From assembly GCA_002104985.1 (NCBI GenBank), contig MCGO01000390.1, positions 1 through 20,739 on the forward strand: DNA of 20,739 nucleotides, written 5' to 3'. Source of the stretch: Rhizoclosmatium globosum (taxonomy: Eukaryota; Chytridiomycota; Chytridiomycetes; Chytridiales; Chytriomycetaceae). Positions 3,372 to 20,739 of this stretch are shown piece by piece (the stretch's first letter is position 1; the number at the start of each line of letters is the position of its first letter). Position numbers and translations under genes: made by a program. A model generated the notes under the pieces. That model was given only the letters and a program-made list of their open reading frames with translations. It did no database searches and was not told where the DNA came from.

Positions 3372-5535
3372 ATGATGCGGCCCAGTGAGACGCCGACGTC
3401 CAGTTCGACGCTCTTGAACAACTCGTCGATCGCGGGCAACTACTCCTCAGGCGCAAACGCAAACGCAACAACACCGACACGTGGCGCCACAATTGCTGCG
3501 ATCGGAGTTGGAGTTGGAGTTGGTGGTCTCGTTGGCGGCCAAAGTCCGTCGCCATCGCCGCGCCACGTGCCCGTCCACTCGGCGGCAAACCAGAACAACT
3601 CAAACTCAAATGCTGCAAACGGCGGCGGCACTGCGTCTTCGGCCTCGTCTGTCCGCTCAAACTCAAATCCAAACATTGTTGGAATGCACTACAAAGTCGG
3701 GAAGAAGGTCGGCGAGGGCTCTTTCGGTATTGTCTACGAAGGTGTGTGTGTGCGTGTGTCGTGGTATCAATCCTCTGATGCATATCGATACAGGTGTCAA
3801 TATGCTCAACAACCAACCCGTCGCAATCAAATTCGAACCACGAAAGACGGATGCTCCACAATTGAGAGACGAATATCGTACATTCAAGATCCTTGCCAAC
3901 TCTGGTAATGTGTCTTTTTGGTTACCCTTCAAGCAAACCATTGACTGTCTGGTCCCTTATTTTCAAACCCCACCCCACCCAAACCACCCCCCAACCATTG
4001 CTGCAACACAGTCGGTGTCCCGAACGTTTACTTTTTTGGACAAGAGGGTCTTTACAACATTCTATGCATTGATTTATTGGGACCAAGTTTGGAAGACATG
4101 TTTGACCTCTGTAAACGAAAGTTTTCAGTCAAGACTGTGTGTATGGCTGCGAAACAGATGGTGAGACTTTTCTTCTCCTCCCCTTTTCAGATAATACAAG
4201 TGGGTGGGTGTGACTAATGTCGTCGGACTTTTCAACAGATCACACGAGTGCAAACGATTCACGAACGAAACATGATTTACAGAGACATCAAACCAGATAA
4301 CTTTTGATTGGACGCTTACCTCGAAACAGCGAGCTTGTAGCAAACATTGGGAAATCATCTGGTGAGATTTTCTAGAGAAATTGGCATATTGTGTCTCCAT
4401 TGTGATCTGATAGATTATCGTGTAGATCCATACGGTGTCGTTGCAAATCACTCTATCCTGGAACCACATCCTGCCGCACAAATTCACATTATCGATTTTG
4501 GAATGGCCAAAATGTATCGAGACCCCAAAACAAAGCAACACATCCCATACCGCGAAAAGAAGAGCTTGAGCGGAACTGCCCGTTACATGTCCATCAACAC
4601 CCATTTAGGACGAGGTAAACGGCCGACTTCATCCTTGTGTTTTTCGATCCTGACATAATCTCTTGCACCAGAACAATCCCGTCGAGACGACCTGGAATCC
4701 CTAGGCCACGTATTCATGTACTTTTTGCGTGGTGCATTGCCGTGGCAAGGAATGAAGGCGGCGACAAACAAGCAAAAGTATGAAAAGATTGGGGAAAAGA
4801 AACGCACGACTCCTCTTCGTGAGTTGTGTGATGGGTTCCCTGACGAATTCGCCATGTACTTGCAGTATTGTCGGGACTTGAAGTTTGAGGAGACACCTGA
4901 TTATGATTATTTGCGGGGGTTGTTTACGAATGGTGAGTTTCGTGGTTTTTGAGTGATGGGGTTTCTGATGTATTTGGTGCAACAGTGTTGGTTCGGATGG
5001 GTGAACATGACGATGGAGTGTTTGATTGGATGATTGCTATGGATTCGCAGCGAAGAGAGCGTGAAAGGGTGAAGGAGGCTGAGAGGGAACAGAGGGAACG
5101 GGAGCGATTGGCCCGACAAGCCCACATGCAGCAATTGCAGCAGAATATGCTTTCAACACCATCTATTTCTTCGCATACTCCAATCAGCTCTGGACCTTTG
5201 CGACCTGGGAGTCCTTGAATCGCAGTGGATCACTTGGGCATATGCCTCCTGTGAGAAGAGATACCACACCAAAGGAGGCACCAAGAGTCTCAGTTCAGCG
5301 AAGTCAAACAACGAGGCCGATTCAGGCTGCAGTAGTGGATCAACAGCATCGGTTCTCTGTGCCTGGGTTTTTGAAGAGTTCAGGAAAGAGCCAGCATGAA
5401 AACCAAGGCAGGAAGTCGTTTGGAGTGTTTGGGCAGCGAACTACAACACCTATACCGATGCAAGCAGAATCAACGGAGGATAAAGAGAATAAGGACAAGT
5501 GGTGGAAGAAGCTGTTTAAGAAACGGTCTGACTGA
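3372..5535 (+). CDS. Casein kinase I, Yck-type, tail without cysteines (CK1-B)
   Basis: Tandem paralogue of CK1-A. Seven exons: 3372-3741, 3794-3904, 4012-4160, 4239-4361, 4426-4614, 4672-4932, 4986-5535. The gene begins with ATG ATG; the first is taken as start. The N-terminus is rich in Ser, Asn, Ala and Gly with a Gly-Val run. The core has [21 protein letters not shown], an YRDIKPDN motif (about 4281-4304), DFGMAK and the CK1 signature before LGREQSRRDD. The 261-nt exon before the last intron has the same length as in CK1-A. A basic helical stretch ([14 protein letters not shown]) follows the kinase domain. The protein ends [12 protein letters not shown], without the Cys cluster of CK1-A. 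One base is missing in the T-run near 4306 and one near 5215; adding them gives 584 residues with consistent phases. Confidence 0.9.
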
Positions 5536-5874: not shown

Positions 5875-5892
5875 ATGAGCGCACCAAACGCC
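5875..5892 (+). pseudogene. CK1-C exon 1, first six codons, cut off by retrotransposon
   Basis: ATG AGC GCA CCA AAC GCC encodes M-S-A-P-N-A, and the element's TGTAAC end begins immediately after it. Placed before the sequence at 20014, these codons continue in frame into the Gln-rich N-terminus of a third Yck-type kinase. The spacing after CK1-B (339 bp) and the same orientation fit a third member of the tandem array. The ATG has A at -3. This start is inferred from the join, not from similarity of the six codons themselves. Confidence 0.8.
5889..5892. repeat. Target-site duplication, left copy (CGCC)
   Basis: The four bases immediately before the left TG end are CGCC, matching the four bases immediately after the right CA end. 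They fall within codons 5-6 of CK1-C. Confidence 0.85.
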
Positions 5893-6929
5893 TGTAACAA
5901 GTAAGGGTTGCTTCCCCTTTCCAGGTTTCAATCCTCGCTACCATCCTACAACACTCGCTCCTAGGTCTACGCTTACTTGCCAAAAAGCACGGTACGAATC
6001 AGTACCCTGGTCCCTCCTCCGTGGCTCCAATGATTCCAGGTACTGTCTGAAAGACCCAAGGTCTTCGCTCGCTAAGACACTAATCCCAGGCTGACGTAAA
6101 TAAAGAACAATAAAAGAAATAACACATCGCTACGCTCTACCACTCCCTCCTAATGTTCCAGTAGTCCGTTACCGTTACATCATCCACTCCGCTCATCCGC
6201 TTGTTACTCCCGAGGCAAGATCCGTTACCCCCGAGAGACCCGACTTCGCTAACATTCCTGAACGCCTCGGTGCGCCACCATAGCCCTTATGTCCATAGTG
6301 TGGAGTCTACGCTGATAGTTCCAGTCGCCGCTGGCTTTCCACCGCTTCCTCTGTGCAACAGATCCATGGGTCAGCGTTCAAGCCTACAACCCATGGCAAG
6401 GCACGTGCTCCGTGGCCGGAGGAACCTGGGGTGCTCCACACACGCTAGCCCCAGCCCCCGCCATGCACACGTACCCCACACATCCAGCCTACTCGTTCAG
6501 TCCAGAGGTAGCCCACTCCTCTCTTCGATTCGTCCCCTGCTACCTCCTTTGGTTCGCTAACCTGTAGTTCGCTAATCCGGCATCGGACTCCCTAACTCGG
6601 CCTTTCCCTTCGGTCGAGGTGACTTGTGTCTCGCTGATCCAGAGTACTCGCTCCGGCGCGTCTACCGTGAAACCGGCCTATGGTGGCGTCTCCCTAAGAG
6701 CGGCCACGCCCGTCTGTTACACGTCGACGCCGTCGCTCGCTCGAGGTCCGTCTCGCTCTGGGCGACCTTGATCGACTCGCTCGCCTTTCAATTCGCAACA
6801 ACTTTTTATTCCAATAATAGACACTGTTCTAATCTAAAGTCCCCAACTAAAATTCCAAAAATAGATAAAGAAAACGTGTCGAGTCCAAGTCCGAACCAAA
6901 CCCCAGAACGTGCGCCTGCACACGTTACA
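5893..6929 (-). repeat. 3' LTR (left copy, 1037 bp)
   Basis: Runs from TGTAAC to GTTACA and is repeated at 18974-20009. A by-eye line comparison shows no substitution and a single length difference: five C at 6228-6232 against four at 19309-19312. A TTTATT at 6805-6810 reads AATAAA on the element strand and could be a poly(A) signal or an A/T promoter element. TCGCT (AGCGA on the element strand) occurs 14 times. Open frames inside the LTR do not resemble proteins. Confidence 0.97.
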
Positions 6930-7077: not shown

Positions 7078-10000
7078 TCATTCCTCCTCTTGTGTTTGTT
7101 CACCTCCTAACCTACTACTTCTCCGAGGCCTTTGATTCTGACCTCCCCCTTGTCCTTCCACTTGTTTCCGCCTTTTCTCTGTTCTCTTAAGCTCTGCTGC
7201 AGCTTTAGTTATATAAGTGCCAACAGTCACAGGTCCCAACAGAAACTCATCGTCAGGTACAATGTCTCTGGGTAAGTCATCCACTCCTTTATACCGATCA
7301 TCAATCCATTTCCGATACACCGTGTAAGCCCTACTTTTTATCTGTTTCTGGTAACCCCAGAAAATCTTTAATGTTTCCTCCGGTAGTGTATCGTCGGTAT
7401 GCATTTGTAATTCTCTTACACCTTTCAACTTTACCACATAAAAGAATCCTGTTCCTTCTCGTCCCACATGAGTAATGGCCAAAATTTTATGTAAAGGATC
7501 TGTGTCCTCGGTATGGTCATACTCTTCCATCTTTCTTCTCAAAGAAGGGTGAGTCGCAAACAATGGTTCGTGAGAGTACAAAGGTCTCCTCGTTAGGATA
7601 CGCCCTTGTTTCTTCCACGCAGCTATTTCAGCTTTTAACTCCTCTTCTTTTGACACTTGTCGCACTGCCCTTTCAGCTGACTCTATTGGTCTCCTATGAA
7701 CATAGGGTCTTAACCTACTCACATGTGCTTCACGTTGAACAACTTCTCCCCCCGGAAAAGTTTCCACCACTCTAAATAAAGTTCCTGAATCACCTTTAGA
7801 CTGATCCATGATTCTTACAGGTCCAACCCATCTAAAGATAAATTTCTTTGGAGCTTTCAATCTCTGCATCTCACTTTCAAGAGGTACCGCTAACCAAGCT
7901 CTGTCGCCGATCTCAAAGGTATGAGGTGCGCGGTCGTTTTCCAACGATTTTTCCCTAAGGGCCTCTTTTGCCTTGGCCACCTTTTCTTTTATAACGCTTT
8001 GAGCTGCGTGAAGTCCTTTAAGGATGTACTTCATAAACAGTTTACGCCGCTCCTCATCCTTGAGTTTTCTAGTATCGACTACGGGTCGATCAACTGCCTC
8101 TTCTAACTCAACTTCCTCGTCAGCTTCTTCATCGACAAAAACTTCAAAGATATTCCCTCGGCTCTCTTCGAATACGAAGGTCTCGGTCGACTTTACTCCC
8201 ACTGAATATTCTGGTGGGTTTATTATCCAGAATTTTCCTGCCTTGTCCCAAAGCGGTTCAGCACCAAATAAATGTAAATCTCTCCTTCGAGGATCAACAA
8301 GACTAACAGTTTTGTCTAAGTATTCCTCTTTCTCGTACGAACGATAAGTGCACTTCACGACTCCGACACCTTGTTCGCGTCCTAAGGTTACAACCGGTCT
8401 GCCATCGTTATACTCAAGATCTTCAGGCGAAGGTCCAATCTCCAAACTATTCGTTCGGCTATACACGGCCACAAGTCGAGAAACAGGTACCTTACCCATT
8501 CTTTCGTCAAAACCGTTCTCCTTCCCCGGGCTCAAACGATACACCGCGTCCCGTAAGTCAGCTCTCGATCCATCTCTCAAATAAATACAATTTGGGAAAG
8601 GACTAACTTTTGACTTCATTTTAGGATCGTACACTAAACACAACACATCCAAGTCGTGTCTTTCGAGGATGTCTCTTAGCATCATCCACAAAGGTTGATC
8701 GTCTTTGGTGTATCCGTACAGGTGTTTGCAACACTTATCTTTAAACTGCTCAACACTAACAAACTGGGCAACAGAAATCCTAGGAAGCCCTTCCCGTTTC
8801 CTATTGCTTTCCGCGTTTCCCTCGATATGTATGTTCGTTTCAGCTTCAATCCTTTCGACAGCCGCAGCTTCTTCTTCGTAAACCGCGTCATCAGGGTTAA
8901 CGTCCCTGGGACTAATTCCAACGAACATATCCGTAGGTAGTCTCGCGTCTCTACCATGCCATGCAAAGTAGGGTGTCTCGTTAGTGGTTCCATGTGGGTG
9001 CGTTCTATACGCAAACATTACAAAAGGGAGTATCTCTTCCCAATCGTTAAACTTAAATTTATCAATATACGCTCTTATCTCCTGTGATAGAGTTTTGATC
9101 ATCCTTTCGGCAGGTCCATTTGCTCTCGGCCAATAAGGCGCGGTAAAGGTCTTTTCGAATCCCAACCATCGGCTCAGTTGATGCACCAATGTACTATCAA
9201 GCGGCGGTCCTCCATCAGTGTGTAAGAAGACAGGTATTCCGTACCTACAGAATATCTGAGTCACTAATGCTTTACAAACAGTTTCCCCTGTCAAGTCAGG
9301 AATAGGGATGGCTTCAGCCCACTTCGTAAAGCTATCTACCCACACCATTATATAACGGTTTCCATTAGGGTTCTCTTTTCCCGTATCCATAAAATCTAGG
9401 AACGTTCGCTCCATTGCAAACTCTCCCAAAGGTATTGGATGTAAGTAACCAGTTTTCGTATGAAAGTCCTTAGATTTATTACAGGTTTCACACGATTCCA
9501 CGTGGTTCCTCAGATCTTTAACAATATCTGGCCACCAGAATCTATCCAACAACACGGGTAACACCTTCGCATGGCCGAAATGCCCTGCGTAGATATCGTC
9601 GTGGTGCCTCTCAAGAATTGTTCTCTTCAAAGAGTCAGGTACGCATAAAGCTATTCTTCCTGATGCCCTCCTAACCACATTTGTGTTTAAGTCCGAAACA
9701 AAGAACAGTAAGCCATTCAAGTCCAAAACCATTCGCTTTGATCTTGTAGCCATAGTTTCAGCATCCAAGTCGTCGGGTATTTCGAACTTCTCTTTGAAGC
9801 GAATAATGGGTCCTAAATAAGGATCCTCCAACTGCTTCTCACGCCATGTTTTCAAGGATTCTCCTTGAGTGAAGGACATAACTCCTAAATTAATCTCCAA
9901 TTCTTCCTCACAGAGTTTTATTGATTCCATCGCAAATGTTGAAAAGTCCGACGTTGTCTTTCCATTCAGCCACTCTGTGGTGTCTACTAACATTTCTTCT

Positions 10001-11364
10001 CCTATTTTAGGGAATCCCTTCAAACTCGTGTGTAATTCGACTCTCAAGTGGTCACTCCCACTCATGTCTGCATCGATTCGAACGTCGAATCCTTCCTCTT
10101 CGATTCGCTTATCTATTAACACATGGTCGATTCTCCAAAAGGGATATTCCGTCTTATTCTTAGCCTTCAACAGCCAAGTCGCTCCCAAGTCATCAGGATG
10201 TTTCACTCGAAAACCATCATGATAGTTCTCAGTCATTCTCTTGAACCATTCCTGTTCTTCCTTACTAATAGTTGAGGGGAATCGGTTCACCAATTTGTCT
10301 TCTAATACTATCGGCGAAACATCATTCATTGTCGGCGCAATATTCATGTCTCCCAACAAGATTACAAGGTGATCTTCTCTCAAGTTGTCACAGTGTGTCT
10401 TGAGGTCGTCTAAAAACTTCAATTTATACTCTTGGCGCTCTGAGTGTCTCATTCCACTCGGTACATAAGTATTTACTATTGCTACATCTCCAAGGATCAG
10501 GGTTAACACTCGTCCTTTATCTCCATCGTAGACAAGTGTCTCTCCGCCCTTAGATGTCTCCATTCCTTCGATGGTCTTGGCTTCTACTTTTCCGTAGAGT
10601 TCCTTCCTCCACAAGATTGCGACTCCTGCGTATCCTGTTTCTGAATCATTCAACGAACAGTTCCAGTTCGGAAGCTCCTTTAAAGCAGCGAATAACTTCT
10701 TACTTTTATTATTCGTACCCATTCGTGTTTCCTGTAGACAAACGATACTACATCTCTGTGAATTTAAGAAATGTTCGACTCTTTCTGTCAAAGGTAAGAG
10801 TTTAAGGTCGTGTTCTTCGTCGTATTTCTTCAATAAACTCCGCAATCCGTTGATATTCCATGTTGAAACGTTTATACTCTTCGAGATTGGCATTGTCTCA
10901 GGTTTCTGTCTCGGTACTTTCTGCACGTCTCTCAAGCTTTTCAGGCGCTTATCTGTTTTAGACTTATTCATAAGTCTCGTTCCTAAGTCGGTCATAAGAT
11001 CGTTCGTGCTCTCAGGTTCAGCTGCTTCTGCAACCTGATTCGAAGTATATGTTTCCAAGAACAATCTACGGTGTTCGCTCTTTGCGAACTCTCTCTGTTT
11101 GTCAGTCGTAGCATATTTATTATACATGTATGTTTGGTACAAAGTTTTTAAAGGGGTATTCTCGTTCTCCCTTCCAGAATCCCCGGTCTCTTGACCATCA
11201 GCCTCTTTTTTAATCGCGTGCTTCACTCCTGTGAAGTCAACTCTTGATAGTGTATCTGGTACAACCTGGTTTTTTCCTGGTACGTGAATGATTGACAAAT
11301 CATAATCTGAAAGGGCGTAAGCCCATCTCGCGAATCTTCCTGTCAAAGCACCGCTTTTCACCAT
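7078..11364 (-). CDS. pol: Pol, 3' part: RNase H end, ExoIII/APE1-like domain, integrase, C-terminal tail
   Basis: A single uninterrupted frame of 1428 codons; numbering below starts at the Met codon at 11364, which lies inside RNase H and is not a true start. Order: RNase H end with final Asp in PDTLSR (36-41); linker (42-163); ExoIII/APE1-like endonuclease (about 165-447); integrase zinc finger (588-628) and catalytic core (about 645-815); unrecognised insertion (about 825-1095); integrase C-terminal GPY/F-like module (about 1150-1222, RWVGPVRI and VSRLRPY); chromodomain-like segment (about 1290-1340, FFYVVKLKG and LPEETLKIF); basic C-terminus (RRKQVEG, RPRRSSRLG). It would be part of a polyprotein cut by the element's protease. 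The frame is continuous over 4.3 kb, unlike the neighbouring RT region. Confidence 0.93.
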   Translation of the reverse strand: MVKSGALTGRFARWAYALSDYDLSIIHVPGKNQVVPDTLSRVDFTGVKHAIKKEADGQETGDSGRENENTPLKTLYQTYMYNKYATTDKQREFAKSEHRRLFLETYTSNQVAEAAEPESTNDLMTDLGTRLMNKSKTDKRLKSLRDVQKVPRQKPETMPISKSINVSTWNINGLRSLLKKYDEEHDLKLLPLTERVEHFLNSQRCSIVCLQETRMGTNNKSKKLFAALKELPNWNCSLNDSETGYAGVAILWRKELYGKVEAKTIEGMETSKGGETLVYDGDKGRVLTLILGDVAIVNTYVPSGMRHSERQEYKLKFLDDLKTHCDNLREDHLVILLGDMNIAPTMNDVSPIVLEDKLVNRFPSTISKEEQEWFKRMTENYHDGFRVKHPDDLGATWLLKAKNKTEYPFWRIDHVLIDKRIEEEGFDVRIDADMSGSDHLRVELHTSLKGFPKIGEEMLVDTTEWLNGKTTSDFSTFAMESIKLCEEELEINLGVMSFTQGESLKTWREKQLEDPYLGPIIRFKEKFEIPDDLDAETMATRSKRMVLDLNGLLFFVSDLNTNVVRRASGRIALCVPDSLKRTILERHHDDIYAGHFGHAKVLPVLLDRFWWPDIVKDLRNHVESCETCNKSKDFHTKTGYLHPIPLGEFAMERTFLDFMDTGKENPNGNRYIMVWVDSFTKWAEAIPIPDLTGETVCKALVTQIFCRYGIPVFLHTDGGPPLDSTLVHQLSRWLGFEKTFTAPYWPRANGPAERMIKTLSQEIRAYIDKFKFNDWEEILPFVMFAYRTHPHGTTNETPYFAWHGRDARLPTDMFVGISPRDVNPDDAVYEEEAAAVERIEAETNIHIEGNAESNRKREGLPRISVAQFVSVEQFKDKCCKHLYGYTKDDQPLWMMLRDILERHDLDVLCLVYDPKMKSKVSPFPNCIYLRDGSRADLRDAVYRLSPGKENGFDERMGKVPVSRLVAVYSRTNSLEIGPSPEDLEYNDGRPVVTLGREQGVGVVKCTYRSYEKEEYLDKTVSLVDPRRRDLHLFGAEPLWDKAGKFWIINPPEYSVGVKSTETFVFEESRGNIFEVFVDEEADEEVELEEAVDRPVVDTRKLKDEERRKLFMKYILKGLHAAQSVIKEKVAKAKEALREKSLENDRAPHTFEIGDRAWLAVPLESEMQRLKAPKKFIFRWVGPVRIMDQSKGDSGTLFRVVETFPGGEVVQREAHVSRLRPYVHRRPIESAERAVRQVSKEEELKAEIAAWKKQGRILTRRPLYSHEPLFATHPSLRRKMEEYDHTEDTDPLHKILAITHVGREGTGFFYVVKLKGVRELQMHTDDTLPEETLKIFWGYQKQIKSRAYTVYRKWIDDRYKGVDDLPRDIVPDDEFLLGPVTVGTYITKAAAELKRTEKRRKQVEGQGGGQNQRPRRSSRLGGEQTQEEE
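8080..8895 (-). other. Unrecognised ~250-residue insertion between integrase core and its C-terminal module
   Basis: In Ty3 elements the stretch after RLPxD normally goes within some tens of residues to a helix and the GD-x-VWL/GPY module. Here the equivalents are RLPTD (809-812) and GDRAWLAV (1153-1160), about 340 residues apart. The helical lead-in (KGLHAAQSVIKEKVAKAKE) is present from about 1116, so roughly 825-1095 is extra. It contains mixed alpha/beta-looking sequence with DLDVLCLVYDP and FWIINPPEYS, and an acidic stretch near 1078-1090. I do not recognise the fold. Confidence 0.7.
8900..9630 (-). other. Integrase zinc finger and DDE catalytic core
   Basis: The HHCC finger is H588-x6-H595 and C625-x2-C628 of the pol frame. 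The catalytic triad is Asp657 (FLDFMD), Asp717 (HTDGG) and Glu753 (GPAERM), with exactly 35 residues between the second Asp and the Glu, as in retroviral and Ty3 integrases. The segment W-P-R-A-N-G-P-A-E matches the usual P-x-x-N-G-x-x-E region. The core ends near AWHGRDARLPTD. It inserts element cDNA into the host genome. Confidence 0.95.
10024..10872 (-). other. ExoIII/APE1-type endonuclease (EEP) domain inside pol
   Basis: Residues about 165-447 of the pol frame carry the ordered motifs of AP endonucleases: TWNINGLR (168-175, Asn170 matching APE1 Asn68), CLQETR (209-214, Glu212 matching Glu96), NTYVPSG (298-304, Tyr300 matching Tyr171), GDMNIAP (338-344, Asp339 and Asn341 matching Asp210 and Asn212), FWRIDHVLID (409-418, Asp413 matching Asp283) and SDH (437-439, matching the Asp308/His309 pair). 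Every catalytic position I can place is kept, so the domain is predicted to nick DNA, possibly at abasic sites. It is joined in frame to RNase H on one side and integrase on the other. Motif wording is nearer to cellular ExoIII/APE1 than to typical LINE endonucleases; that is a by-eye judgement. Confidence 0.9.
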
Positions 11365-11640
11365 TGTACAAGAGCTGAATGATCAGTTTCGATAGTAACT
11401 GGTCGATCGAAGATATACTTATCGAAGCAGCCACAAGCCCATACTACCGCAAGACCTTCTCGGTCTGTGTTCGAGTACTTCTGTTCCACTTCGTTCAGCG
11501 TTCTCGAAATGAATGCAACAGGTTTTCTATCTGCTCGAGTTCCTTTCGGTCCTTTTGCGTAGAGTGCACCGCCTAAAGCCGTGCCAGAAGCATCACATTC
11601 GATGATATATTCTTCGTTATCTCCCGGTAAGTATATATTT
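11365..11640 (-). CDS. pol: RNase H domain of pol (N-terminal and central part)
   Basis: On the element strand this interval encodes IIECDASGTALGGAL, TLNEVEQKYSNTDREGLAVV and ETDHSAL, giving the Asp, Glu and Asp of the RNase H active site. The last Asp lies in PDTLSR of the next frame. The frame breaks by one base near 11362, just after the ETDHSAL segment, where the long pol frame takes over. RNase H removes the RNA strand during reverse transcription. A second break near 11640 separates it from reverse transcriptase. Confidence 0.85.
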
Positions 11641-11645
11641 TATCG

Positions 11646-12700
11646 TCACACAAAGCTGCTATTAATTTCTAAACGCTGCTTCGCATGCTTCTGTCCAACC
11701 CACGATTTATCTCCTTTCAAGAGCGAGTACAACGGCGCTGCAATAGACGCGAAATCTTTAATGAATCTTCGGAAGTAGTTTCCAAAACCTAAGAAAGACT
11801 GCAATTGTCTAATTCCCGTTGGTACAGGCCAGTTTCTCAATTTAGAAATCTTATCTGGATCTCTCCTTAAACCGTCCTTCGAAATAACATGTCCCAAAAA
11901 TGGTAACTCTTGGTGGAAGAGTGCACATTTCGACGGTTTTATTTTCAAATTATACAAGTACATTCGCTCCAGAACCTTCTCAAGGTGTTCAAAGTGTTCT
12001 TCCTCTGTCTTCGAATAGATTATAATATCATCCACGTATACCAACGCGAAAACAATTTATACCCAGCTAACACTGCGTCCATCATTCGTTGGAATGTTGG
12101 TGGTGAGTTTGTAAGCCCGAACGGAAGAACCTTAAAATGGTAAAGTCCTTGTGACGAGATAAGGCAGTCTTCTCTTTACTCTCTTCGTCCATAGGAATCT
12201 GCCAGAATCCACTCATCAAATCCACTGATGAGAAATAATGTTTTCCCGAAACCATGTCAAGGTCTCGTCTATTTTGGTAGAGGGTATCTGTCAGGTATCG
12301 TTATCTGATTTAGTTTCCGAAAATCAGCACAGAATCTCCAATTACCATCGGCTTTCTTCGCCAAAACCACTGGAGCGGCATATTGAGACGTTGACGGTTC
12401 AATTACCTCATCTTTCAACATTTTCTCAATATGTTCTCGCAATATCTGAGTTCGACCCGCCCCTTCCGGGTATGGGTGTAATGAGGTATGCGAGCTCCTG
12501 GTTTCAACTCAATTTTATGTGCAGGGACTCTTTTCGTTCCTGTCACTACATCACTTTTAAAGACATCAATATATTTTCCAATTAAGTCCAGAAGCCTCCT
12601 TTTTGTGTCTGGGCCATAAAAGTCGGAGTCCATATGACTCAAGTCAATCTTATTAAAGATTTCTTCGTTCGACTTATACTCTTCAGGCATGTAATCTCTT
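11646..12700 (-). CDS. pol: Reverse transcriptase domain of pol, frame-broken
   Basis: Ty3-type reverse transcriptase. Segments visible in order on the element strand: VPAHKIELKPGARIP (near 12530), the DGNWRFCADFRKLNQ block (near 12340), SVDLMSGFWQIPMDEE with the first catalytic Asp at 12220-12222, FGLTNSPPTFQRM (about 12083-12124), YVDDIIIYS with the Asp pair at 12027-12032, and FLGHVI plus FLGFGNYFRRFI in the connection. These are the classical blocks 1-7 of Metaviridae RT. The frame shifts near 12450, 12275, 12240, 12150 and 12045, mostly by one base, and catalytic residues remain recognisable. Most of the slips look like lost single bases. Confidence 0.85.
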
Positions 12701-13786
12701 TTATCCTCTTTTGTATATCATGTCCTGGTGTTGAATTCATGATTGGGTCAGGATCCAATTCCGATTCTACTATCTTCGTGTAGGTATAAGGGTCGGCGTC
12801 TTTAAATCTTTAATAAATCTCGGATCGCGAATAGTCTATCCATTCAGCGCGTCTTTCACGTATTCTTCGTTCCGACGCGAAGTTTCATCTTCTAATTCAT
12901 ATTTCTTGTCAATCTTCTTTGACAATTCATCGACGATGTCCTCTATATGCAACATCACCGCTCTGAACTCTTTATGAGTACGGGGTTTCTTCCTTCCTAC
13001 TGATTGTAAGATCGGGTCGAGGAAGTCCTTTTCTTTAAACAGTTTGTTCACTGAGGTAGGTTTCTGTTCAAGCACAGACTCGAAGAAATCCTCATCTAAT
13101 GAAACGTAAAGTTCTATCCGTCCTTCCGTTTCGTAGTCGGCCTCGTCTGACTCCTTCTCTGAGTCTTCGTCGGAATCCTCTTTATTCGGTGGGTCGACAA
13201 AGTCGAGTTCGTCAACCAGTATAGGTTGGACCCTAACCTCTTCTTCTAAAGGCGTTTCGGGTGGTTTGTCCTCCATTAAACAGCTAAGAAACGCGATGTT
13301 ATTCTCTGGATTATGCATTTTCGCTGTAATGCCATTTCGATCATCATTGATTGATCGTTCACGTCTATACTTTTAGGTACATCTAATACAGGTACGTCCC
13401 CACATTGGACGGTTGCTAAGCATATTCCTTCATCTAATTTTAATTTCCGATCCCACATAAGTCAGTTGCATTTTAACTGCTTTCGAGTTGACATCTTCAA
13501 CCCGATATATCGTATTTGCTACGAGAATTCCTCTGCTCGCCATATCAGGGAAACCTTGAAGTAAGCAATTTTCTTGGTTGTTGGGTAGCTTTCTATCCAA
13601 CTCTACTAAAACTTCTTCCTTCCATTGTTTCAGGAGTATATTTTCTTTAAGAACCATCGTCGGTTCTCTTCTGGAACATACTCTTCATAATATTTTAATG
13701 GTACACTCAATCGTTCTTTATTGTGTACTAGTTCACCATTTTTCGTGTAGAACGAACGTGCTTTCATTCTGGGACCATAGAATAGC
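12701..13786 (-). CDS. Protease-to-RT linker of the polyprotein, frame-broken
   Basis: Three overlapping open pieces (13657-13430, 13458-13276 and 13318-12836) follow each other on the element strand and appear to be one protein. The first two (VANTIYRVEDV, LDEGICLATVQ) resemble the beta-rich segment found after the protease in many Ty3 elements. The third is very acidic (runs such as EDSDEDSEKESDEADYE) and ends with a charged helical stretch. From 12836 to 12700 I see only a short link to RT. No enzyme motif is visible. Confidence 0.55.
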
Positions 13787-14837: not shown

Positions 14838-17507
14838 TTACAAGTGAAACATTCTGTGGCATAGGCGATTCGAGACTCTCCAATTCTGACGTTGATCCGT
14901 ACTCATATTGAAGGTGTTTGCAATCAATTCGAACTTCTCGTCCCAGTTTTGAGGGTTCGTTTCCTGGTTCACCTGCATCAAAGCCGTGTGTAAAACCTTT
15001 TCCATGTTCGTATTAGGTCCGATTCCTTGACCATAGCGGCGTCCTTCCGACGGCGCACGGTCACGATCTCTTTCACGATCATTCCGGTGACGACTCTGTT
15101 CACGTTTACGCTCTTCCAGGAGCACCTGCGTCAACTTTCCAATATCAGCTGACGTCTGCGCTTGTTGAAGTGCCACGTGTTGTACTGCGGTTTCCAAAGA
15201 CGAAAGTCTGCTATCTTCGCGACTAGACTTCTTGTTACGTATTTCTCCGTTAAAACCTTTCTTGTACAAGAATTGAGCAACCATGTCCATAGTTACACGT
15301 GAATCAGTGTACTTGACTTTCGAACCAGCCACTACAAAGTCGTGGTCATGTAGACGTTGAATTATACCGTCTTGCGTCGATTCTGGAATTTTAGCAATGA
15401 ATGTATCTTTCAACGTTTGTGCACTAACTGCTTTGTCACCCAACAGGTGATTCGCGTTCTTACGCATTTCGCTTTCCTTCAACGCATTGTTCGAACTCCA
15501 TTCCCCGTTAATCAAGGCTTGAGCCGCTTTAAATTGGACAATCGACGAGGTAACCAAAGTCTCCCATGCCCAATTAAAGTTATTAAACGTAGGGTCTCGA
15601 CGCAAAGAAGCCTTGAACGTCATGATATCGCTATCAGTAGAGTCCATGGGCAACGTTTGAACAAAGTTCTTGATGAACTCATCATCGGTCTTGTACCTCT
15701 TGTCTTGACCCACATAATCAGCTTTCAAGGCGTCGACGGCTCTCTTCCATGTTTCACGAGTATCCTTGTTCAAAGGTTCATTATGGAAGGACCTGACTCT
15801 TGTATCGAAGTTATTGTTTCCATACAATACACCCGTCAGTTTATCGGCAAAATCAGTGAAACCTGTCATGGTATTCGAACCAATGTCAGAAACAGCATTA
15901 TTGAGGCTCTTAACTTGTAAGCCAATTCCGGAAACTTCTTGGTTTACTGACTCCGTCGCTGTAGCTAGACGTTCACTGTGTCTTGCAATCAAGTTTGCAT
16001 GACCCTCAGCTTTTCTGTTCGAATGAACCAACTCATCCAACATAGTTCTCGGACCTTCTTGTTCTGGTTCCTCTTCCTGGTCTTGAGGTTCATCCGGGAT
16101 AATTTCTACCGGCGTCAATGCATTATTGGGATATGTTTTTCCCAACTCATTCATCAGTTTGCGATAGTTATCATGGCTGTACGCTCTAACTCGAGTACCA
16201 GTCCTTGCTTCAAGGTGTTCTTTAACTTCCTTGAAGATTTGGCGAAGGGTTACGTCACTGGTAACCTCAATGTTATCTGGGATCCGGAGGGTACCCGAAG
16301 TCTCAGTCCAAGAGTAAGATACTCCGTTAATACTGAATTGAATCATGATTCTAGGTGTTGTATTGTTAAACCAAATCCATAAGACACCAACGATCAAGGG
16401 TGTCCATAACAGGGACATCATAACACTCACGGGAACAAGATAGGTTGAGGACCAGCCATCAATACTCGAAATACCGGTCGTCGGTTTAATTATAGAAGCA
16501 ACTATCAAGTTGAAGAGGAGCCGATTCTTGGATCTTTTTGAAATACAACCTCTCCTCCCACCGCTTCTTAAAACTTCATCTCGGGTCATTTTCAAGCAAT
16601 TATTATTCAAATAAACTCGATTAAACTCATTAAATGATGTAGATTCAACAACACACTTCAAAGAATAAAGGATTACTTCAGAAATAATGAAAGTAACAAA
16701 TTCAGTTACACTTGTGGGATCAGCTTCGCTAGTTCCTTTCGCGAGAATATCTTCCTCCAGAGGATGAGTAATTTGGACGTCCGCGGTTTGAGGGACGTGG
16801 ATCCCATTCACCTGTTCGAGAATGAATCCTTGATCACCTCTTCCTTCAACCTCACCTCTGTGGTCGTCATATTCGCGCTGTCCATAGCGATTACCTCTCA
16901 TACGGTTATTACGGTTATTTTTCTTTTGAGCTCGATTGGCTTTTCCGAAATCCTTTTGCTGGGCCAGATAACCTCCGATCTGCGCTCCAGTCAATGCCGC
17001 AATTCCGATATTGTCTTTCGTAAGTGGCGTAGATGCGGTAATCCCCGATTGGAGATTAATTCCGGCCACAACTTTCTGAAGGTTCGAGAGCTCTTCTTCT
17101 CTCGCCTTTTTCAAGAAGAACGTCTTTCCTACAGGAAAGAAGGACTTAGAATAATCATATAGTCCCCTCCAAGTCGAAACTTGGGTACGCAGATATAAAA
17201 ATCTGGAAATTCCTACAACAACGCTCCACAACTCAACCCAAAATAAAGTCAACTTACTTTCATCCCTATCCGTGGTGGTGTTCCCGATTGTCCTTTCCTT
17301 GGGCACGGATCCAACTGGCTTGGTTCGCATAATCCAATTCTCTTGAAGAGTATTGACGTTACGCCACGCGTTAGTCAGCTGTTCATTGAGAGAATCGATT
17401 TGTTCTTTAAGTCTGAAAACATGTTCCTCGTTGTTTACCATAGCATCGGCTCCTTCGGGAGGAGTCGACCCTGTAGTCACGGTTAGTTTGGCCTCGGCTT
17501 CCTTCAA
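14838..17507 (-). CDS. gag: Gag polyprotein, main intact block (about 889 codons)
   Basis: Continuous frame; its first codon is TTG in mid-protein, so it continues from the block at 17811. Numbering from 17507: coiled-coil part (1-60), moderately hydrophobic segment (about 84-106), RG/RN-rich basic patch (about 187-226), hydrophobic 27-residue segment (354-380) that looks membrane-spanning, acidic Glu/Pro stretch (471-486), a predominantly helical capsid-like part (about 490-760, with TWKRAVDALK and FNWAWETLV), a short coiled coil (765-800) and an Arg/Asp/Glu-rich tail (800-820). It forms the particle that packages element RNA. About 900-1000 residues is large for a Ty3 Gag, and a hydrophobic segment in its middle is unusual. 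Confidence 0.75.
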   Translation of the reverse strand: MKEAEAKLTVTTGSTPPEGADAMVNNEEHVFRLKEQIDSLNEQLTNAWRNVNTLQENWIMRTKPVGSVPKERTIGNTTTDRDESKLTLFWVELWSVVVGISRFLYLRTQVSTWRGLYDYSKSFFPVGKTFFLKKAREEELSNLQKVVAGINLQSGITASTPLTKDNIGIAALTGAQIGGYLAQQKDFGKANRAQKKNNRNNRMRGNRYGQREYDDHRGEVEGRGDQGFILEQVNGIHVPQTADVQITHPLEEDILAKGTSEADPTSVTEFVTFIISEVILYSLKCVVESTSFNEFNRVYLNNNCLKMTRDEVLRSGGRRGCISKRSKNRLLFNLIVASIIKPTTGISSIDGWSSTYLVPVSVMMSLLWTPLIVGVLWIWFNNTTPRIMIQFSINGVSYSWTETSGTLRIPDNIEVTSDVTLRQIFKEVKEHLEARTGTRVRAYSHDNYRKLMNELGKTYPNNALTPVEIIPDEPQDQEEEPEQEGPRTMLDELVHSNRKAEGHANLIARHSERLATATESVNQEVSGIGLQVKSLNNAVSDIGSNTMTGFTDFADKLTGVLYGNNNFDTRVRSFHNEPLNKDTRETWKRAVDALKADYVGQDKRYKTDDEFIKNFVQTLPMDSTDSDIMTFKASLRRDPTFNNFNWAWETLVTSSIVQFKAAQALINGEWSSNNALKESEMRKNANHLLGDKAVSAQTLKDTFIAKIPESTQDGIIQRLHDHDFVVAGSKVKYTDSRVTMDMVAQFLYKKGFNGEIRNKKSSREDSRLSSLETAVQHVALQQAQTSADIGKLTQVLLEERKREQSRHRNDRERDRDRAPSEGRRYGQGIGPNTNMEKVLHTALMQVNQETNPQNWDEKFELIANTFNMSTDQRQNWRVSNRLCHRMFHL

Positions 17508-17945
17508 GCAACTGAAAAGTATCGCATTGCTTTTTGTGATGGTCGCGACGACCAGTCAAATGCTTGCAACGGTGTTCCAATTCAACAACCTTATTCTTGG
17601 CAGCTGTGTACTTGGTAACCGTCTTGTCAAGTTGCTCCATAATCAAATCGCGATCTTTCTTGACAGTTTCAAGCTCAGTCGCAGTCTCAATCGCTTGGTC
17701 TTGAACCGCAATCAAATTGTTTTGGACAGCGGTAAGCTTGGCACGCAAGTAGGTTTCGGGAGTCGTTGCCAACGGTTCTCCCATGTGAAGTTTCTTGACA
17801 GCCGTTTCCAAGAGTTGTCTTGGTCAACGTCAATTACCATGGTTGCACTTGGCAAGGGAGAGAGTTCATCCACAATCTCGTCCTCGGCCGTAGATGCCAA
17901 AGTGGACGCGCTTCCTTGAGTTTCAACAAGTTCTAATCACAGTTA
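17407..17945 (-). CDS. gag: Gag N-terminal region, coiled coil, frame-broken
   Basis: Two overlapping frames (about 17945-17712 and 17811-17407) join the main Gag frame through one-base shifts near 17815 and 17515. The combined sequence starts acidic (TAEDEIVDELSPLP) and then forms a long heptad-like coiled coil (AIETATELETVKKDRDLIMEQL). The frame at 17945 is open back to a stop but has no ATG until 17840-17838, so either translation starts there or an upstream exon or frame supplies the start. Confidence 0.6.
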
Positions 17946-18973: not shown

Positions 18974-20009
18974 TGTAACAAGTAAGGGTTGCTTCCCCTT
19001 TCCAGGTTTCAATCCTCGCTACCATCCTACAACACTCGCTCCTAGGTCTACGCTTACTTGCCAAAAAGCACGGTACGAATCAGTACCCTGGTCCCTCCTC
19101 CGTGGCTCCAATGATTCCAGGTACTGTCTGAAAGACCCAAGGTCTTCGCTCGCTAAGACACTAATCCCAGGCTGACGTAAATAAAGAACAATAAAAGAAA
19201 TAACACATCGCTACGCTCTACCACTCCCTCCTAATGTTCCAGTAGTCCGTTACCGTTACATCATCCACTCCGCTCATCCGCTTGTTACTCCCGAGGCAAG
19301 ATCCGTTACCCCGAGAGACCCGACTTCGCTAACATTCCTGAACGCCTCGGTGCGCCACCATAGCCCTTATGTCCATAGTGTGGAGTCTACGCTGATAGTT
19401 CCAGTCGCCGCTGGCTTTCCACCGCTTCCTCTGTGCAACAGATCCATGGGTCAGCGTTCAAGCCTACAACCCATGGCAAGGCACGTGCTCCGTGGCCGGA
19501 GGAACCTGGGGTGCTCCACACACGCTAGCCCCAGCCCCCGCCATGCACACGTACCCCACACATCCAGCCTACTCGTTCAGTCCAGAGGTAGCCCACTCCT
19601 CTCTTCGATTCGTCCCCTGCTACCTCCTTTGGTTCGCTAACCTGTAGTTCGCTAATCCGGCATCGGACTCCCTAACTCGGCCTTTCCCTTCGGTCGAGGT
19701 GACTTGTGTCTCGCTGATCCAGAGTACTCGCTCCGGCGCGTCTACCGTGAAACCGGCCTATGGTGGCGTCTCCCTAAGAGCGGCCACGCCCGTCTGTTAC
19801 ACGTCGACGCCGTCGCTCGCTCGAGGTCCGTCTCGCTCTGGGCGACCTTGATCGACTCGCTCGCCTTTCAATTCGCAACAACTTTTTATTCCAATAATAG
19901 ACACTGTTCTAATCTAAAGTCCCCAACTAAAATTCCAAAAATAGATAAAGAAAACGTGTCGAGTCCAAGTCCGAACCAAACCCCAGAACGTGCGCCTGCA
20001 CACGTTACA
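18974..20009 (-). repeat. 5' LTR (right copy, 1036 bp)
   Basis: Second copy of the LTR, lying at the upstream end of the minus-strand element and therefore expected to carry its promoter. It ends directly against CGCC and the interrupted CK1-C exon. It is identical to the left copy except for one C missing from the run at 19309-19312. Element transcription would run leftward, away from CK1-C. Confidence 0.97.
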
Positions 20010-20013
20010 CGCC
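20010..20013. repeat. Target-site duplication, right copy (CGCC)
   Basis: CGCC directly follows the right LTR end (GTTACA) and repeats 5889-5892. Removing the element and one copy restores a continuous frame, which supports 4 bp as the real duplication length. Confidence 0.85.
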
Positions 20014-20739
20014 AACCGCGCCTCGTCGCAGCCAACGGCCGCCCAGTCCGCCGCAACTCTCCTCGCAAAACAACAACAACAGCAACAGCAACAGTTCTCG
20101 CCGCAGCAGCAGTACAACGCCATGGTCGCTTCTGGCATCGTCCCTCTCTCCGCCGTGCCCCAGGCCTACTCCTCGCAGTCCGCACAACAGCAACAGCAAC
20201 AAACAGCTCAGAACCAGCCTCAGATCATCGGCTCGCAACAGGCCACCTCCTCGTCCTCCTCCTCAAAGAAATCATCCCTCAGTCACAATGTCGTTGGAAT
20301 GCATTACAAGGTTGGAAAGAAGATTGGTGAAGGATCTTTTGGAATGGTATATGAAGGTACGTCCTCAATCTTCACTTGTCGGCAATGATTGGAAGTTCTA
20401 ACGTTTTTGGGTTTTGTAGGAGTGAATGTGATCAATAACCAACCTGTTGCCATCAAGTTTGAGCCAAGGAAAACGGATGTTCCTCAGTTGCGTGATGAGT
20501 ACCGTACGTTCAAGATTCTTGCTGGATCAGGTACAATGGTCTTTGTTTTCAATGGCGCCCAATTTTTGTCGCAGCCACCACACCTTAATTGGATTCAGCT
20601 GACCTTTTTTGCACTTTTAACATTATAGTGGGTGTACCAAACGTTTACTACTATGGTGCTGAGGACTATACAATGTTCTTTGCTCGGATATGTTGGGACC
20701 TACCCTTGAAGATATGTTTGATCTTTGTAAACGGAAATT
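20014..20739 (+). pseudogene. CK1-C, remainder of interrupted casein kinase I gene (partial, runs off window)
   Basis: Third tandem Yck-type kinase. Exon 1 continues at 20014-20356, exon 2 is 20420-20530 and exon 3 starts at 20629 and leaves the window. Exon 2 has the same length (111 nt) and phase as in CK1-B. The N-terminus carries Gln runs (20069-20120, 20184-20205) and a Ser run (about 20250-20265), then [30 protein letters not shown] and a VGVPNVYYYG segment. A base is missing near 20683, before [13 protein letters not shown] in the shifted frame. The native first six codons are at 5875-5892, 14.1 kb away. An in-frame ATG at 20122 lies before the kinase domain and could give a shortened but complete kinase if this side is transcribed. 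Confidence 0.88.

Follow-up and report, generated by a model that had tools for sequence, protein, structure and literature searches.

The general view is that retroviruses and long terminal repeat (LTR) retrotransposons depend mostly on the host for repair of their complementary DNA (cDNA). What would such an element do with a repair-type nuclease of its own? The question is raised by a 20,739-nucleotide stretch from the chytrid Rhizoclosmatium globosum (contig MCGO01000390.1 of assembly GCA_002104985.1; hereafter the window, a whole contig of the 56.9-Mb assembly), in which a 14,117-bp Ty3-type LTR retrotransposon encodes an ExoIII/APE1-family nuclease domain, here called EEP, between the RNase H and the integrase of its Pol protein. 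The layout is not peculiar to the window: we found EEP domains in two separate Ty3 lineages of this genome, at different places in Pol, and in two Ty3-type proteins from metagenomes.

An earlier note, made from the letters alone, had described a complete ExoIII/APE1-like domain and proposed a profile search as a check. This search returned a PF03372 match over frame residues 168 to 439 (positions 10048 to 10863; E = 1.8e-18); further along, the frame also matches the Pfam families Integrase_H2C2 and rve. PF03372 alone does not tell the ExoIII type, which we scored with the NCBIfam model TIGR00633 ("xth"; cut-off 99.05 bits) on nine Ty3 domains. The 283-aa window domain reached 136.2 bits, and the eight others passed as well (L041, 119.8; L029, 129.2; L031, 130.1; L026, 112.2; L035, 115.7; L034, 113.3; and the metagenome proteins P0036, 134.6, and P0040, 171.3), while none of three LINE (long interspersed nuclear element)-type or unassigned domains did (L033, 41.5; L050, 65.1; L051, no score). 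The cut-off of the narrower TIGR00195 was missed by the window domain (120.4 of 182.55 bits). All 51 PDB matches of the window domain at E ≤ 0.001 were named ExoIII or AP (apurinic/apyrimidinic) endonucleases, and no LINE endonuclease chain was among them. The LINE control L033, unlike the Ty3 domains, fell under the ExoIII cut-off and matched LINE-1 endonuclease chains ahead of ExoIII, its top two rows carrying the labels LR1 and LTX, which we take to be L1-endonuclease variants. The predicted fold of the domain agrees with that of the ExoIII/APE1 family; VIA-align listed no LINE endonuclease in its 50 rows, an absence that does not exclude a likeness to them.

Eight residues that we assume to be catalytic (N, E, Y, D, N, D, D, H) were all retained in 13 of 14 Ty3 rows, including the window domain, for which the note had claimed this; the only exception, L040, is a frame without the domain start. 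The abasic-pocket tryptophan (presumably W280 of APE1) was present in eight of the 14 rows, namely P0036 and the seven rows of the window's lineage, X. The closest database proteins were about 25 to 33% identical to the domain. The capture from a host gene that the note suggested is a possible origin. From cellular enzymes of the family (ExoA, 5cfe; Mth212; human APE1), it differs by this low identity to database proteins and in being fused within Pol; compared with ExoA, the X domain has about 13 more residues after NGLRSLLKK. When the EEP region of the 2867-aa frame described below was used as a protein query, none of 758 candidates reached E ≤ 0.001. The APE-type endonucleases of LINEs, which have neither integrase nor LTR, likewise combine a PF03372-superfamily domain with a reverse transcriptase (RT). 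Family scores, PDB matches, and the LINE control support the note's view that the domain is of the cellular ExoIII/AP-endonuclease type and not of the LINE type. A LINE origin is not supported by the family scores, and the trees described below leave the deeper relations unsettled.

The element itself has the marks of integrase-mediated insertion. Its two LTRs, which both start with TGTAAC and end with GTTACA, were identical in 1037 of 1038 aligned columns, with a single 1-base gap and 0 substitutions (blastn), and the 4-bp sequence CGCC stands on either side of the element. From the near-identical LTRs, the TG...CA ends, and the CGCC duplication, we infer a young, integrase-type insertion. 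The run TGGGGGCCC, 3 nt inside the 5' LTR, is a candidate tRNA primer-binding site.

The 1428-codon frame that the note had called intact (7078 to 11364, minus strand) is present, but it makes up the 3' portion of a larger Pol. The copy on contig C43 (L021) has a single frame of 2867 aa that encodes, in this order, a CCHC knuckle, a DTG motif as in proteases, RT (RVT_1, residues 1106 to 1265), RNase H (1355 to 1460), EEP (1607 to 1878), H2C2 (2014 to 2071), and rve (2095 to 2184), and its integrase carries the D-x35-E (DD35E) motif. In the window copy, RT and RNase H are broken over other frames and the EEP frame holds the RNase H tail only. The RNase H-EEP-integrase layout reported for the window is real and recurrent, but in this copy its RNase H lies mostly in another, broken frame. 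Compared with the C43 copy, the RT/RNase H stretch (11300 to 13399) showed 14 gap openings and four mismatches over 2115 aligned columns, against one gap base and six mismatches in 4306 over the EEP-integrase frame; decay or unpolished assembly of a short contig would both fit this cluster of indels.

Four other copies of the family were fetched (L021 on C43, L022 on C372, L023 on C416, and L028 on C184), which were 98.3 to 99.3% identical to the element over long alignments, L023 being without an inner stretch upstream of RT. All four retained the EEP: the 849-bp domain was 100% identical in L021, L022, and L023 and differed by one gap in L028. The longest exact repeat common to the flanks of the domain (424 and 428 bp) was 8 bp. 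A nested insertion of the nuclease domain, by which the note's reading could have failed, is ruled out by these copies and by the lack of any longer flanking repeat.

Table 1. Features of the element in the window
Feature	Position	Strand	Basis or remark
Target-site duplication CGCC, left copy	5889..5892	.	flank read
3' LTR (TGTAAC...GTTACA)	5893..6929	-	blastn of both ends
Open frame, 1434 aa between stops, with the RNase H tail, EEP, zinc domain and core of the integrase, and a long C-terminal tail	7078..11382	-	
Integrase core (rve)	9130..9399	-	Pfam E 9.9e-10; frame residues 656-745
Integrase_H2C2 zinc domain	9469..9642	-	Pfam; frame residues 575-632
ExoIII/APE1-family nuclease domain (EEP)	10024..10872	-	8/8 catalytic positions kept
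RNase H fragment, different frame from EEP	11358..11639	-	PF17917 (RT_RNaseH) E 4e-23
RT fragment with YVDDI motif, frame other than that of EEP	11646..12056	-	PF00078 (RVT_1) E 7.5e-13
N-terminal RT fragment	12269..12508	-	sequence equals RT start of other copies; without own Pfam match
905-aa frame, gag-side region	14838..17555	-	no Pfam family above cut-off
5' LTR	18974..20009	-	blastn, boundaries read
Target-site duplication CGCC, right copy	20010..20013	.	flank read

A profile search of the whole assembly gave at least 83 matches to PF03372, at least 60 to Integrase_H2C2, and at least 65 to RT_RNaseH. We paired matches on one strand lying at most 6 kb upstream of an H2C2 match, so that the places counted are copies and not families. 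A PF03372 match lay upstream in 46 of the 60 H2C2 places: the order was RNaseH-EEP-H2C2 in 37, EEP-RNaseH-H2C2 in four, and EEP without an RNase H match in five (three at about 1.96 kb, as in L029, and two at 325 to 385 bp). RNaseH-H2C2 without an EEP match was seen in 13 places, 11 of them with an ordinary short gap of 256 to 450 bp, and H2C2 alone in one. At the other two of the 13 (C189:10841-10963 and C55:22032-22205), the gap between RNase H and integrase was about 1585 bp without a PF03372 match, perhaps reflecting a further diverged EEP. Thirty-five of the 83 PF03372 matches had no H2C2 partner; one of these, L033, has the domains of a LINE. An ordinary Ty3-type frame, L042, had a chromodomain and no EEP in the Pfam scan. 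Further elements with the RNase H-EEP-integrase order, for which the note had proposed to look, occur in this genome. Chance or contamination as the source of the domain is ruled out by its recurrence across the genome.

The EEP-bearing frames fell into two lineages, which separated in RT-RNase H trees. In X, six members have the order RT-RNaseH-EEP-H2C2-rve in one frame (L021, L025, L026, L035, L036, and L037), and L024 has it spread over three frames. Lineage Y comes in two layouts, RT-RNaseH-EEP-H2C2 (L031, L034, and L038) and EEP ahead of RT (L041 and L029); rve was not listed for L031, L034, L038, and L041, and a D-x33/34-E spacing was found in all four. The RT motif is YVDDI, YIDDV, or YIDDI in X, FVDDY or FVDDI in Y, and LQDDL in L029. 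L029 (G000:C146:333200-343052) and L030 represent a divergent LTR-type frame with the order EEP-RT-RNaseH-integrase, in which the RT of L029 is unmatched by Pfam at E ≤ 0.001 and LQDD replaces the usual Y/FxDD. For both lineages, the best PDB match of RT/RNase H was Ty3 Pol (L021 for X, E = 2.3e-108; L031 for Y, E = 3.5e-40). This match, the order RT-RNase H-H2C2-rve, the TG...CA LTRs, the DD35E motif, and the 4-bp duplication are as in Ty3/gypsy elements (Metaviridae), from which the window element differs by the additional ExoIII-family domain in Pol, absent from its ordinary relative L042.

Relatives outside this genome were sought with residues 160 to 800 of the window frame, which gave 25 proteins at E ≤ 0.001. 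PF03372 was listed in three, two of Ty3 type (P0036 and P0040) and one of group II intron type (P0046). The metagenome protein P0036 (1710 aa) was 43% identical over the whole region; it begins at RNase H and continues as RNaseH-EEP-H2C2-rve, with a chromodomain match just under the cut-off (23.8 of 25.1 bits). P0040 (metagenome, 2380 aa) places its EEP ahead of the protease, in the order EEP, DSG motif, RT, RNaseH, H2C2, rve, and its JGI label, "exodeoxyribonuclease III," suggests that EEP-bearing Ty3 layouts sit unremarked in databases. P0046, a 959-aa metagenome protein, is another case of a retroelement-type RT joined to an AP endonuclease: its N-terminal ExoIII domain (TIGR00633, 263.1 bits) is fused to an RT/maturase of group II intron type (RVT_N, RVT_1, GIIM). 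A scan of IMG/VR with six peptide patterns found no relative.

Trees were built without near-identical or fragmentary copies (L022, L023, L027, L028, L030, L032, and L039, and in the EEP trees L036) and, in later trees, without the long branches L043, L050, and L051; L033 was left out of some EEP trees. The integrase tree took 15 of the 25 proteins, and the ExoIII rows were 10 of 35 database relatives of the domain (26 of the 35 in alignment A1). In the integrase tree, P0036 grouped with X (support 98/99) and Y grouped with P0050 and P0052 (100/99), for which no PF03372 was listed, while P0040 was unresolved outside both. The EEP tree again joined P0036 with X (100/99), recovered Y (100/99), and placed P0040 outside both, where its join to a single ExoIII row was weakly supported (94/29). 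Branching inside Y conflicted, with L041 and L029 together in the RT tree (99/96) and L029 outside in the EEP tree (98/93). X and LINE formed one side of an EEP-tree branch with support of 25/0, and topology tests holding groups together gave approximately unbiased p values (p-AU) of 0.586 for X with Y, 0.547 for Y with LINE, and 0.541 for X with ExoIII/APE. The EEP trees thus do not reject a single X and Y clade. Since lineages without an EEP match lie between EEP-bearing ones, three gains would be the simplest reading.

Has the domain been kept for its function? Amino acid identities for EEP, RT-RNase H, and integrase, respectively, were 82, 90, and 88% for L021/L025, 62, 65, and 61% for L021/L035, 60, 66, and 61% for L025/L035, and 44, 58, and 56% for L021/L026 in X, and 54, 62, and 57% for L031/L038, 50, 65, and 54% for L031/L034, 55, 62, and 51% for L034/L038, and 43, 40, and 33% for L031/L041 in Y. 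The linkers beside the EEP were 71 and 79% identical in L021/L025 and 31 to 36% in L021/L035 and L025/L035 (31% and 32% in the former), and EEP conservation was clearly above that of the linkers in these two distant X pairs. Synonymous sites were saturated, dS being undefined in 21 of 24 comparisons, and we therefore used the proportions of nonsynonymous and synonymous differences (pN and pS) instead of dN/dS. For the EEP of L021/L035, pN was 0.254 and pS 0.873; across five pairs, pS was 0.72 to 0.87 throughout and EEP pN 0.10 to 0.38. These values indicate that the EEP is under purifying selection, the strength of which approaches that on the core enzymes in some pairs but falls below it in others.

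Our preferred reading, to which we give an even chance, is that the Pol-borne nuclease acts in the particle on the element's own cDNA. As part of Pol, the EEP would be packaged together with RT and integrase. Its varying position within Pol suggests that it would function as a module, rather than as a structural element of either enzyme. It would cut the cDNA at abasic, perhaps also uracil, sites and clean damaged 3' ends before integration. Damaged or unfinished cDNA is the expected substrate, given that the related AP endonucleases have 3'-phosphodiesterase and 3'-exonuclease activities on the side, and the intact DD35E integrase also argues for a role on cDNA. Insertion itself would not need the EEP, as the integrase motif, the LTR ends, and the target duplication suggest. 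More broadly, we consider it possible, though somewhat less probable, that an AP endonuclease of the ExoIII/APE1 kind entered Ty3 elements on three or more separate occasions (in X, in Y at two positions, and in P0040), which so gained a particle-borne incision-repair step for their cDNA; we know of no LTR element with such a step. In the literature, AP cleavage, 3'-phosphodiesterase, 3'-exonuclease, and 3'-phosphatase activities of the ExoIII family come from one active site (PMC6093668), and Mth212 also cuts at uracil (PMC6202378). UNG2 is packaged in HIV-1 via integrase, although the need for it is disputed (PMC2427051), which shows that how uracil in cDNA is dealt with has been a matter of active interest. 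The EEP could protect cDNA made where host repair is poor, by analogy with what dUTPase domains may do in some retroviruses and rotifer elements.

Several observations weigh against this reading. The frames scanned showed neither a glycosylase nor a dUTPase domain, so abasic sites would need to arise spontaneously or by host enzymes, or the EEP would need to cut at uracil itself. The abasic-pocket tryptophan is not kept in the five Y rows or in P0040, and Y may therefore act on another substrate. The EEP is also less conserved than both core enzymes in L021/L026 and L021/L025, and in the Y pairs it stands at 50 to 55%, against 62 to 65% for RT-RNase H and 51 to 57% for integrase.

After cDNA repair with 3'-end cleaning, we prefer, in this order, end trimming or proofreading, counter-defense, and target nicking. 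The nuclease might serve reverse transcription, using a 3'-5' exonuclease or RNase-H-like activity to trim cDNA ends, remove primers, or proofread RT errors, with damage not its main substrate. The EEP adjoins RNase H in X and in some Y elements, enzymes of this family also act as 3' exonucleases through their one active site (PMC6093668), and the tryptophan missing in Y and P0040 would fit; but X keeps this tryptophan, and L042 and the 11 short-gap places of the 60 are without an EEP. We consider this role unlikely, though it is the strongest of the alternatives. Less probable again is a counter-defense in which the EEP clears away or processes cDNA that has been attacked by deaminases or further restriction factors, with a benefit only in hosts that have this defense. 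Some retroviruses carry or package uracil-handling enzymes (PMC2427051), and two EEP lineages in one genome would fit a shared pressure, but nothing observed separates this from plain repair. We consider it improbable that the nuclease nicks the chromosomal target and aids integration, as EEP domains do in LINEs: the two Y layouts of L041 and L029 place the EEP ahead of RT as in LINEs, yet the domain is not of LINE type, and ordinary insertion by integrase is consistent with the DD35E motif, the TG...CA ends, and the 4-bp duplication. Least credible is a functionless passenger that was fused by chance and spread with a successful element; extra ORFs (open reading frames) of rotifer elements showed no significant departure from neutrality (PMC5408684), and Exo_endo_phos domains of Kuafuorterviruses are reported as sporadic and perhaps host derived (PMC11673190), but here two Ty3 lineages, P0036, and P0040 retain the catalytic residues even though synonymous divergence is saturated.

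Other parts of the window may be noted briefly. About 600 residues after the integrase core (approximately 7080 to 8900) are without any Pfam match, and no chromodomain was listed by Pfam for the window frame; the tail of P0036 is similarly long, with its weak chromodomain match. Three copies of one stretch, 74 to 75% alike (1381 to 1433, 3672 to 3724, and 20287 to 20339), presumably represent the N-terminal side of casein-kinase-like genes. A Pkinase match of 29.1 bits, just below the cut-off, lies in 1656 to 2558, and the element lies about 280 bp from the third copy.

Added enzymes are known from other LTR elements. Kuafuorterviruses, LTR elements of animals, share with the window element an Exo_endo_phos domain, present in some of them; X, Y, and L029 are set apart by RT motif, which is IADD, VADD, or LADD in the Kuafuorterviruses as described (PMC11673190). 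The note knew of no described Ty3 clade with the present layout, a statement to be qualified by the sporadic domains of Kuafuorterviruses. Among the matches listed for Creative Commons-licensed PMC papers, we found no account of an LTR lineage in which an ExoIII/APE domain is general, though one may exist elsewhere. In dUTPase-bearing LTR elements and retroviruses (rotifer Juno, Vesta, and TelKA, and basidiomycete elements), Pol has an added enzyme whose position varies between groups, as here, although it is a nucleotide hydrolase and not an AP-endonuclease-type nuclease (PMC5408684). Rotifer LTR elements with a DEDDy exonuclease likewise show an added nuclease common to unrelated lineages, but it belongs to another nuclease family and occupies a separate ORF3, whereas the EEP is in frame within Pol (PMC5408684). 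A fungal transposable element screen puts Exo_endo_phos under LINEs (PMC10799480). In a table for the camel, Exo_endo_phos_2 stands in the LTR section alongside LINE-1-type domains, and we read these camel entries as nested LINEs.

The finding carries a warning, that an Exo_endo_phos domain beside an RT is not by itself a mark of a LINE. Here Pol carries a repair-type nuclease that recurs in separate Ty3 lineages at different places, and an EEP in Pol would be a natural counterpart to the retroviral dUTPase. With it, whether cDNA damage limits retrotransposition becomes directly testable.

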